DNA of 64,000 nt from Thermoplasmatota archaeon (GTDB taxonomy: Archaea > Thermoplasmatota > Thermoplasmata > Lutacidiplasmatales > JAMCUS01). The stretch spans positions 1-64,000 of the forward strand of contig JAMCUS010000028.1 in the NCBI GenBank assembly GCA_023379385.1, written 5' to 3'. The position numbers and the translations under genes were made by a program. Under the pieces are notes generated by a model. It saw only the letters and a list, made by a program, of their open reading frames with translations. It was not told the DNA's origin and ran no database searches. Positions 3,390-45,304 of this stretch are shown here, in pieces (within the stretch, counting starts at the first letter, position 1; each line of letters opens with the position of its first letter).

Positions 3390-3791
3390 ATGAAAAATTC
3401 AACATCTGAGTCCAATTGTATAGACAATGCCGATTTTAAAACACAAGAAATAATAGATAATGAGTCCCAAGAAGCGTCAGATTGGATAAGAGATATTCGT
3501 TACAATAATAATAGACCCAAACTGAATTATTGTGAAATATGCAATTCTAAGGAAAAATTAGAACAGCACCATATCAAAGGACGTAAGCATGGGAATGAGA
3601 TAATAACGGTTTGTGTAAAATGCCATAAAGAATTAACTGATAAACAAAAATTATGGTCAAATTCAGGCAATAAAGATTCGTTTTTAATTAGAGGATTAAT
3701 AGATATTTCTGAATTAAAATATGAAAAAACAGGTATTGAATATTACAGATTGATAGCAAAACAATTAACAGAGGGATATAAATATGACTGA
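3390..3791 (+). CDS. HNH endonuclease
   Basis: CEICNSKEKLEQHHIKGRKHGNEIITVCVKCHKELTDKQ: two CxxC pairs and an HH...N...H arrangement. Confidence 0.8.
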   Translation: MKNSTSESNCIDNADFKTQEIIDNESQEASDWIRDIRYNNNRPKLNYCEICNSKEKLEQHHIKGRKHGNEIITVCVKCHKELTDKQKLWSNSGNKDSFLIRGLIDISELKYEKTGIEYYRLIAKQLTEGYKYD

Positions 3792-6447
3792 TGTTTTTTT
3801 AAGAGCTTTGACTTTTGACAATACAACCAATGTAATAAGTAAACACAAGAATGAAGATAACCACAATACAAATATACAATTGATTATTGATACTGAAACA
3901 ACAACAGACCAATACCAGAACCTGTTGTTTGGTTCATGTCTTGTAAAAATTAAAATAAGCACAGGATTTAAAGAAGAGTGGTATATATTCTACGGTAACG
4001 TTTCTGTGGATAAAATACAACTTATCAAAGACTATGGTAAAGTTCATAATATTACTGTATTGTCAGTAAGAGATTTTATAGATAAAGTATTCTATCCGTA
4101 TGCATATATATCAAGAAGAGAAGTTATAGGATTCAACCTGCCTTTTGATTTATCAAGATTGGCTATCGGTTACGGAATATCAAGAAAAACGAAGGAAGGG
4201 TTCTCATTCAAATTATCTGAAGATGCAAGGAATCCAAGAATCAGAATACGGTCAATAGACCAGAAAAGGTCTTTCATTACCTTTATGAAACCATTAAGAA
4301 AAAAGAGCGATAAGAAATATAAACATTACAACGGATATTTTGTAGATTTAAAGACCTTGACCTTTGCTTTAACAGATAAATCCTATTCTTTAGAATCCGC
4401 ATGTATTGATTTTGATGTATCAAGAAAAACACATCCCGAAGAGCATGGTAAAATAACAGAGAACTACATAGAATACAATCTTAACGATGTTAAAATAACA
4501 TCAGAGTTATACCAGAAAGCACTTGAACGGTATAACATGTTCAATTTGCCTGATTCTGTAAATAAATTATATTCCCCAGCGTCCATTGGAAAGGCATATT
4601 TAAGAAAAATGGGAATAAAACCTTTTAAAGAATGTAACCATGACTTTCCAAAAGAGGTATCAGGCTATGTAATGTCTTCATACTATGGAGGTAGAACAGA
4701 GGTAAGGATAAGAAACAGATCAATTCCTATTACATATCTTGATTTTACTTCAATGTATCCATCTGTTTATTCTTTGCTTGGCTTAGATTCATACCTTAAA
4801 GCCGATAAGATCAAGTTCTATGAAAATACCGATAGCATCAAGAAATTTATAGAAGGCATAACTATCAAAGACCTTCAAAATAAAGATGCATGGAATAGAC
4901 AAAATATGCATTCTATAGTATTGATAAAACCACAGGATGATATTTTACCTGTAAGAATAGAGTATTCTAAAGATGCAAAGAACATAGGCATAAATTACCT
5001 GACATCAGATATGCCTTTATGGTATACCGTTCAGGATGTAATAGCATCAAAATTGCTAACTGGTAAAATTCCAGAAATTATTAAAGCCATTACATTTTAT
5101 TACGATGGGATTCAGGAAGATTTAAAAGATGTGGAAATATCGGATATTACCATTAAAAAAGAGAATGACTTCATACGTAAAGTCATAGAAGAACGGATCA
5201 AGGTTAAAAAAGCAGATGAACCCAACAAAGACCAGATACAATTGATTTTAAAGATAATAGCCAATGCTACATCTTATGGAATATACATAGAGGAGAACCC
5301 AGAAACGTTAAAAGATAAAATGGATTTAAATGTTTATTCCGTTAAATCCTTTAAAATAAAATCAGATAAAATAGAGAGACAGGGTGAATATTTCAATCCA
5401 ATAATGGCTACATTGATAACAGGGTCAGCACGACTGATATTAGCAATGGCTGAACAGATTGCGATACAGAACAACGGATACATTGCGTATATGGATACGG
5501 ATTCTATATTCGTAAAACCTGATAGAGTCAAGGACATTCAAAATTTCTTTAGACCATTGAATCCTTATTCCGTGAACGTTGAAATGTTCAAGATTGAAGA
5601 GGATGATAATAAGAAGCCATTAGACAATATCATGTTCTATGGGATATCAGCGAAGAGATACTGCTTGTATAAAAGTAAAAATAACGGTAAGGACACATTA
5701 CAACCAGATGCATATAAAGATATAAAAATATTGAAGTATTCAACACACGGATTAGGACATCTTATGAATATTAAAGGTGAACAGATATGGAAAGACATAC
5801 TTAACCATAGCTTTAATGAATATACAGATAGAATAGCAGTAAGCCAGATAACCATAACCAGACCATCTGTTCTTAAACGATTTAAAAGATTGAATACTGA
5901 TAAACCAATAGATAACCAGATAAAGCCATTCAATTTTATGCTTATAGGGTCAGAACAGAATAAAGTAATACCGTGTATGCCTTATACAAAAAATATAGAA
6001 GGAATACAATATAAACAATTCATAGATTATAAAACAGGATTAAAATCAGACCAGTTAACAAAGTCAGCTAAAGACTACTGGAAAACATTAGAAGATGTGT
6101 TGATACACTACATAAAGCACAACGACCACAAATTTGACTACATAGATAGCATAGCCCAGAGGAAACACATCATTGCCGACCGTATCAGATACATAGGAAA
6201 GGAATCAAACAACCTTGACGAAGTATCCGTATTGGGAATTGATAACAATTCATACCTTGAGTATGAGAATATCAGGGAATTCTATAATTGGATTTTAACG
6301 TTGAAGCCTAAGGACGTCAGGGATATGGGAATATCGGAAAGAGGACTGAGAAATGTTAAACAAAAAATTCACAATGGAATCGGATTGAAGAACAGGTCAA
6401 AGATTGTAAAAATACTTTTTGAAAAATACTTGAATAAGGTCAATTAA
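3784..6447 (+). CDS. Family-B DNA polymerase
   Basis: 887 aa with 3'-5' exonuclease-like motifs (LIIDTETTTDQ; FNLPFDLSRLAIGYG; YNLNDVKITSELY) and polymerase motifs A (YLDFTSMYPSVYSLLGL), B (LILKIIANATSYGIYIEE) and C (YMDTDSIFV). Confidence 0.93.
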   Translation: MTDVFLRALTFDNTTNVISKHKNEDNHNTNIQLIIDTETTTDQYQNLLFGSCLVKIKISTGFKEEWYIFYGNVSVDKIQLIKDYGKVHNITVLSVRDFIDKVFYPYAYISRREVIGFNLPFDLSRLAIGYGISRKTKEGFSFKLSEDARNPRIRIRSIDQKRSFITFMKPLRKKSDKKYKHYNGYFVDLKTLTFALTDKSYSLESACIDFDVSRKTHPEEHGKITENYIEYNLNDVKITSELYQKALERYNMFNLPDSVNKLYSPASIGKAYLRKMGIKPFKECNHDFPKEVSGYVMSSYYGGRTEVRIRNRSIPITYLDFTSMYPSVYSLLGLDSYLKADKIKFYENTDSIKKFIEGITIKDLQNKDAWNRQNMHSIVLIKPQDDILPVRIEYSKDAKNIGINYLTSDMPLWYTVQDVIASKLLTGKIPEIIKAITFYYDGIQEDLKDVEISDITIKKENDFIRKVIEERIKVKKADEPNKDQIQLILKIIANATSYGIYIEENPETLKDKMDLNVYSVKSFKIKSDKIERQGEYFNPIMATLITGSARLILAMAEQIAIQNNGYIAYMDTDSIFVKPDRVKDIQNFFRPLNPYSVNVEMFKIEEDDNKKPLDNIMFYGISAKRYCLYKSKNNGKDTLQPDAYKDIKILKYSTHGLGHLMNIKGEQIWKDILNHSFNEYTDRIAVSQITITRPSVLKRFKRLNTDKPIDNQIKPFNFMLIGSEQNKVIPCMPYTKNIEGIQYKQFIDYKTGLKSDQLTKSAKDYWKTLEDVLIHYIKHNDHKFDYIDSIAQRKHIIADRIRYIGKESNNLDEVSVLGIDNNSYLEYENIREFYNWILTLKPKDVRDMGISERGLRNVKQKIHNGIGLKNRSKIVKILFEKYLNKVN

Positions 6448-7716: not shown

Positions 7717-7872
7717 TTTATATTTTGTGTCACATAAGACATAATATTTTTATATTTTGTGTCACATAAGATATAATATTTTTATATTTTGTGTCACATA
7801 AGATATAATATTTTTATATTTTGTGTCACATAAGACATAATATTTTTATATTTTGTGTCACATAAGACATAA
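7717..7872. repeat. Five tandem 32-bp repeats
   Basis: Unit tttttatattttgtgtcacataaga(c/t)ataata; the gtcac core starts at 7729, 7761, 7793, 7825 and 7857 (exact 32-bp spacing), with TGTGTCACA palindrome in each unit. Confidence 0.95.
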
Positions 7873-9430: not shown

Positions 9431-9528
9431 GGGCGTGGTGGGATTTGAACCCACGGCCACCGGCTTAGGAAACCGATGCTATAGACCATCATGATTTATG
9501 ATGTATATCCATGCTAAGCCACACGCCC
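9431..9528 (-). tRNA. tRNA-Arg (anticodon CCT) with a 24-nt intron in the D-loop (9485..9508)
   Basis: Acceptor GGGCGTG/CACGCCC, T-arm GTGGG TTCAAAT CCCAC, anticodon loop TTCCTAA. Removing ATATACATCATAAATCATGATGGT gives D-loop AGCATGGCTA with A14, G15, GG18-19 and A21. Confidence 0.85.
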
Positions 9529-45115: not shown

Positions 45116-45205
45116 GGGTCTGTAGCTCAGCTAGGTAGAGCAATCGGCTCTTAACACCTAAAAGAGAGATACCGAAAGGTCAGGGGTTCGAATCCCCTCA
45201 GGCCC
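45116..45205 (+). tRNA. tRNA-Lys (anticodon CTT) with a 17-nt intron after position 37 (45154..45170)
   Basis: GGGTCTG/CAGGCCC acceptor, GCTC/GAGC D-stem, anticodon loop CTCTTA|intron|A, AGGGG TTCGAAT CCCCT T-arm; intron AAGAG can pair with CTCTT. Confidence 0.88.
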
Positions 45206-45304
45206 GCTAAAATTTATAAAATACTGTCTAAAAAGAAAGATTAAAGATATAGCGTTGTATCACGTGTTATGTATAAATGGGGGATCTAAATAAGGATAGT
45301 ATAC

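Follow-up and report, generated by a model that had tools for sequence, protein, structure and literature searches.

Non-canonical tRNA introns have been described as almost exclusively crenarchaeal, and P. aerophilum carries 21 of them in 46 tRNAs (PMC3218864). Asgard genomes surpass this load: in the lineages Atabeyarchaeia and Freyarchaeia the tRNA genes are intron-saturated, with introns in 92-95% of the genes and at many non-canonical positions (PMC11291895). According to reviews, non-canonical tRNA introns go together with loop-bearing forms of the splicing endonuclease EndA, chiefly in Crenarchaeota, and the introns of Euryarchaeota are single and canonical. The alpha'2 type of EndA is regarded as narrow, relaxed motifs being efficiently handled only by loop-bearing types (PMC6379350), and in 2014 the loop-bearing Korarchaeum enzyme was the only exception named for the alpha-2 type (PMC4033280). 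Homodimeric EndA can also cleave BHL-like motifs (PMC8707768).

The window analyzed here, a 64,000-nucleotide stretch of a Thermoplasmatota archaeon contig, contains on its minus strand the only detected gene for tRNA-Arg(CCT) in the genome. The sequence makes it very probable that this gene encodes a pre-tRNA with a D-arm intron at position 22/23 that is excised by EndA, and that this intron is one of about 22 non-canonical ones across the genome. The original prediction, made from the letters alone, had proposed a tRNA-Arg(CCT) with a non-canonical D-loop intron of the bulge-helix-bulge (BHB) type at 9431-9528; these coordinates proved exact, and the insertion is missing in orthologues. The parts of the gene are as follows.

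9431-9528, minus strand: tRNA-Arg(CCT) gene, 98 nt, with one intron (covariance model, 68 bits; orthologues)
9505-9528, minus strand: 5' exon, GGGCGTGTGGCTTAGCATGGATAT, tRNA positions 1-22 (corrected BHB model and orthologue alignment)
9507-9510, minus strand: exon strand of the central helix, GGAT, equivalent to G18 G19 A20 U20a (4/4 pairs with GTCT)
9504-9506, minus strand: bulge ATA at the predicted 5' splice site, cut between T and the last A (BHB solver and fold)
9481-9504, minus strand: predicted intron, ACATCATAAATCATGATGGTCTAT, 24 nt, D-arm position 22/23 (orthologue absence, BHB solver and fold)
9498-9503, minus strand: 5' strand of the inner helix, CATCAT (6 bp with ATGATG, P 0.92-1.00)
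9493-9497, minus strand: loop of the inner hairpin, AAATC (fold)
9487-9492, minus strand: 3' strand of the inner helix, ATGATG (fold)
9483-9486, minus strand: intron strand of the central helix, GTCT (BHB solver and fold)
9480-9482, minus strand: bulge ATA at the predicted 3' splice site, cut between T and the last A (BHB solver and fold)
9431-9480, minus strand: 3' exon with the anticodon arm and T-arm (81-89% identity to same-order orthologues in the aligned 3' part)
9467-9469, minus strand: anticodon CCT (sequence reading)

A covariance model trained on the tRNAs of the same genome scores the gene at 68 bits (E 5e-15 within the window), a value that is partly circular and not independent, since the training set contains tRNA-Arg(CCT) itself. 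ARAGORN does not call the gene at 9431-9528, and a whole-genome search with RF00005 gives only a partial match of 26.2 bits, below the cut-off. Standard searches miss many tRNA genes of this genome: RF00005 at E 0.001 returns 26 matches vs the 41 tRNA genes annotated. ARAGORN labels the tRNA-Lys(CTT) at 45116-45206 as 'tRNA-Stop (tta)'. Elsewhere in the window, an 887-aa open reading frame at 3784-6447 (plus strand) resembles family B DNA polymerases, with a YMDTDSI motif, and the region is possibly an integrated element. An AT-rich direct repeat at 7752-7838 (plus strand) was seen within a weak Rfam match.

Comparison with relatives defines the insertion. The gene is 98 nt long vs 74 nt in intronless same-order orthologues, a net insertion of 24 nt, as the original prediction had estimated. 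BLAST of the locus found similar tRNA 3' halves in 50 of 60 same-order genomes. No D-loop insertion is present in any of the 29 fully read same-order orthologues or close tRNA relatives, and a pattern scan of contigs found four further named Thermoplasmata records to lack an intron at this site. For instance, the relative G007 reads GCTTAGCTTGGATAGAGC where the window reads GCTTAGCATGGATATACATCATAAATCATGATGGTCTATAGC. Excision would give the D-arm GCUUAGCAUGGAUAUAGC, which agrees with orthologues such as GCUUAGCUUGGAUAGAGC, and a standard cloverleaf like theirs, except for one U13-U22 mismatch; as originally claimed, it restores A14, G15, G18, G19 and A21. The paralogous tRNA-Arg(TCT) (L109, G000:C33) is likewise interrupted in the D-loop, at the same column of the alignment, by an intron with the central helix GGAT/GTCC, in which a G-U pair of Arg(CCT) is replaced by G-C, and it has a T-loop intron as well, two in total.

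The geometry of the splice motif was calibrated on classical 37/38 introns of the same genome and then applied to Arg(CCT). The check in the window is the following gene.

45116-45206, plus strand: tRNA-Lys(CTT) with a canonical 17-nt 37/38 intron (45154-45170), central helix CTCT/AGAG

In this tRNA the exon CTCT pairs with the intron-end AGAG, a 3-nt bulge follows each strand and the cut falls after the second base of the bulge. The geometry is the same in tRNA-Ser(GGA), with the central helix CTGG/TCAG. In real BHB motifs, as checked on these 37/38 introns, the central helix thus lies 5' of each bulge. With this one fixed geometry, the central helix has 4/4 pairs in 30 of 34 introns from 22 pre-tRNAs and 3/4 pairs in the other four; the splice sites were picked with agreement to the mature tRNA in view, which makes the 30/34 partly selected and somewhat inflates the contrast, and the constant exon strand TTCA of the T-loop introns limits its weight. 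At other registers of these pre-tRNAs, 4/4 central pairs arise in 3.0%, and the mirrored geometry, with bulges 5' of the central helix, gives them at the same cuts in none of the 34 introns. The contrast of 30/34 with 3.0% is far from chance despite the selection of sites. The Trp intron, which the solver did not resolve, and the Tyr intron are not among the 34. For the D-loop intron of Arg(CCG), the top answer of the solver would lose G18G19, and a hand-placed 18-nt intron (GTAG/CTAA, 3/4 pairs) was preferred, a placement that is uncertain.

Applied to tRNA-Arg(CCT), this geometry gives a central helix GGAU/GUCU, two AUA bulges and the inner helix CAUCAU/AUGAUG. In an unconstrained ViennaRNA fold of the full 98 nt, the pairs of GGAU/GUCU have P 0.96-0.99 and those of CAUCAU/AUGAUG P 0.92-1.00; the inner helix of the original prediction is real. 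The 5' bulge is strongly predicted. The outer helix is weak: the 3' bulge either faces a 7-nt loop or, in the minimum-energy fold, pairs with the D-loop AT. The modeled motif is similar to the relaxed HBh' motifs described in PMC6379350. A 6-bp hairpin arises in 10% of shuffled introns and is weak evidence taken alone; the case for the intron is strong because it draws on the orthologues, the paralogue and parallel cases in other tRNAs, and not on the hairpin alone. A 26-nt intron (TGGA/TCTA) had about the same solver score and was put aside solely because the orthologues are 74 nt long.

The original prediction had drawn the splice motif differently, with a central helix TATA/TATA, bulges GGA and GTC, and cuts after GG and GT that would join GG to CTATAGC. 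These strands are complementary at 4/4 positions and removal of the corresponding segment likewise restores the D-loop landmarks, but the complementarity on paper is coincidental, as the UAUA/UAUA pairs have P 0.00 in the same fold. The drawing is also inverted, with bulges 5' of the helix, contrary to the strand order of the BHB motifs in 34 introns of this genome, and its product CATGGCTATAGC fits the orthologues worse than CATGGATATAGC. We consider this arrangement highly improbable. Given a pair probability of 0.00 vs 0.96-0.99 for GGAU/GUCU, both of its cut sites are wrong, lying 4 nt too far 5' of the supported ones. A 24-nt D-loop intron of the BHB type, as originally proposed, is supported, and the central helix, bulges and cuts as drawn are not. 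The GGAU/GUCU model predicts the exon junction ...CATGGATAT joined to AGCATCGG and the spliced RNA GGATATAGC, vs GGCTATAGC for the TATA/TATA model.

Two other explanations were weighed. The 24-nt insertion might never be removed and might extend the D-loop of the mature tRNA as a hairpin, which is indeed stable; however, the orthologues have no insertion, the parallel insertions in other tRNAs bear splice-site motifs, and those in T-loops would destroy the T-loop if kept, so that retention is very unlikely. Alternatively, the gene might be a pseudogene, AGG being read by tRNA-Arg(TCT) or by an intact tRNA-Arg(CCT) that escaped detection. At a genome completeness of 93.8%, pattern and model searches found no tRNAs for His, Gln(TTG), Thr(GGT), Pro(CGG) or Val(TAC), which leaves some room for an unseen gene. 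Against this, the exons are intact, the acceptor and T stems carry compensatory changes relative to the orthologues, and tRNA-Arg(TCT) itself has two introns. A second tRNA-Arg(CCT), named in the original prediction as part of a case against it, was not found among 40 covariance-model matches in this 93.8% complete genome. A pseudogene thus seems scarcely credible.

We therefore favor an intron spliced at the GGAU/GUCU motif. In the proposed mechanism, the exon GGAU would pair with the intron GUCU as the pre-tRNA folds, placing a 3-nt AUA bulge at each splice site. EndA would cut after the second nucleotide of each bulge, and a ligase would join the exons to form the D-arm described above. From the sequence we infer that the gene is transcribed, that its pre-tRNA is cleaved and ligated, and that EndA has a broad range; the single alpha'2-type EndA found probably processes the ~22 D- and T-loop introns.

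The original prediction treated the Arg(CCT) intron on its own and missed the genome-wide scale, in which it is one of ~22 non-canonical introns. Pattern and covariance-model searches with fetched stretches yielded 41 distinct tRNA genes. By our own annotation of this 93.8% complete genome, 24 of the 41 contain 37 introns, 15 at 37/38, 8 in the D-loop or D-arm and 14 in the T-loop, the latter two making up the ~22 non-canonical introns; visual placement was used for the introns of Trp, Tyr and the Arg(CCG) D-arm. Among the search patterns, TTCA..TGAA for the T-loop stood well apart from its reversed control (69 vs 11 matches), and broad B-box patterns mixed true and chance matches. The genes with non-canonical introns, and the multi-intron genes located outside the window, are listed here.

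D-arm introns (8): Arg CCT, GCG, TCT and CCG; Thr CGT and TGT; Lys TTT; Leu TAA
T-loop introns (14): Arg TCG, TCT and CCG; Asn; Ser TGA and GCT; Lys TTT; Gly TCC and CCC; Leu TAG and TAA; Glu CTC; Asp; Gln CTG
G000:C22:26321-26445: tRNA-Lys(TTT), with D- and T-loop introns
G000:C19:39893-40025: tRNA-Leu(TAA), with three introns
G000:C22:61976-62093: tRNA-Arg(CCG), with three introns

Leu(TAA) and Arg(CCG) are the two triple-intron genes. After excision, the D-arm of Arg(GCG) is identical to that of Arg(TCG), that of Thr(TGT) equals the intronless D-arm of genome G190 and that of Thr(CGT) equals the one of G084. Many of the introns are of the hBH type, with a 3' bulge that is exact against the D- or T-stem and with little inner helix; a few belong to the HBh' type. 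The T-loop introns of Arg(TCG) (L071, AGTGAACTGAAAA) and Arg(TCT) (L109, AGTAAACTGAAAA) are nearly identical, as if copied from gene to gene.

Across the class, a matching Thr D-arm was present in 105 Thermoplasmata genomes, and D-loop insertions occur in only one of these, this genome, where both detected Thr tRNAs have them. The strict T-loop signature GGTTCAAN{4,30}TGAANATCC has 10 matches here and at most 2 in any other genome searched. Matches elsewhere include real tRNAs such as Ala(CGC) in G002 and Glu(CTC) in G037; of the loci retrieved from other genomes, 18 scored as tRNAs, and most class-wide matches are chance-like or unretrieved. Multi-intron Arg(CCG) genes are found in G084 (L198), G201 (L197) and G267 (L196). 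Canonical plus T-loop introns in Arg(CCG) recur in several Thermoplasmata families, and G084 apparently has a D-loop intron too. Non-canonical introns are a low-level trait across the class that is extreme in this genome, in a comparison made with genomes outside its own family. Given the isolated T-loop introns of other Thermoplasmata, the class may carry the trait more often than has been reported. The rarity of such introns in Euryarchaeota, stated in the original prediction, agrees with the literature, and this genome is an exception.

The original prediction had also suggested checking the EndA architecture. A PF01974 search of the genome found one gene, outside the window.

G000:C19:104072-105151: EndA, 360 aa, with two PF01974 domains

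Its nearest PDB matches are the EndA of Methanopyrus, ARMAN-2, M. jannaschii and A. fulgidus, and the catalytic Y, H and K are retained in its C-terminal half. A single gene with two fused PF01974 domains and C-terminal Y/H/K assigns it by sequence to the alpha'2 type. No CSL/ASL insertion is present in its YG-LSL segment, whose length is as in M. jannaschii, A. fulgidus and 23 same-order relatives; ARMAN-2 EndA has an extra loop between YG and LSL, bearing Y160 and K161. A Lys directly follows YG (YGKV), where the relatives shown have other residues such as S, H or C; this recalls the YK of ARMAN-2, without the insertion. A loop-less alpha'2 EndA with ~22 predicted non-canonical introns runs against the published correlation between loop and range. 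Either alpha'2 enzymes would be broader than stated, or this EndA would have changed elsewhere. We see about equal grounds for and against the view that an alpha'2 EndA without CSL/ASL took on relaxed (hBH, HBh') introns in the D-arm, in the T-loop and at anticodon positions, and that large-scale intron gain was here independent of the loop acquisition required by the coevolution model.

The intron type itself is already known, and the combination of a Thermoplasmata lineage with a loop-less alpha'2 EndA looks new. Our literature search, of partial coverage, found no published report of such introns for Thermoplasmata, and a comparable load was known previously mainly from Thermoproteales and some Asgard archaea. 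Its ~22 non-canonical introns, together with two genes carrying three introns each and a loop-less alpha'2 EndA as the only one found, make the genome a direct test case for the link between loop and introns. Korarchaeum cryptofilum differs in its EndA, which is reportedly loop-bearing. ARMAN-1/2 share non-canonical introns and a single-gene homodimeric EndA (PMC6379350, PMC4033280), but their epsilon-2 enzyme is three-unit with an ASL (Y160, K161), whereas the one here is two-domain with no insertion there. The Asgard Atabeyarchaeia and Freyarchaeia have similarly intron-rich tRNA genes with many non-canonical positions, in another phylum and in 92-95% of genes vs ~59% here. The Thermoproteales (Pyrobaculum) are alike in their many intron positions, up to three introns per gene, BHB motifs and load (21/46 vs 22/41 here), but their EndA is of the (alpha-beta)2 type with a Crenarchaea-specific loop, whereas in this member of the Thermoplasmata it is alpha'2 without the loop.
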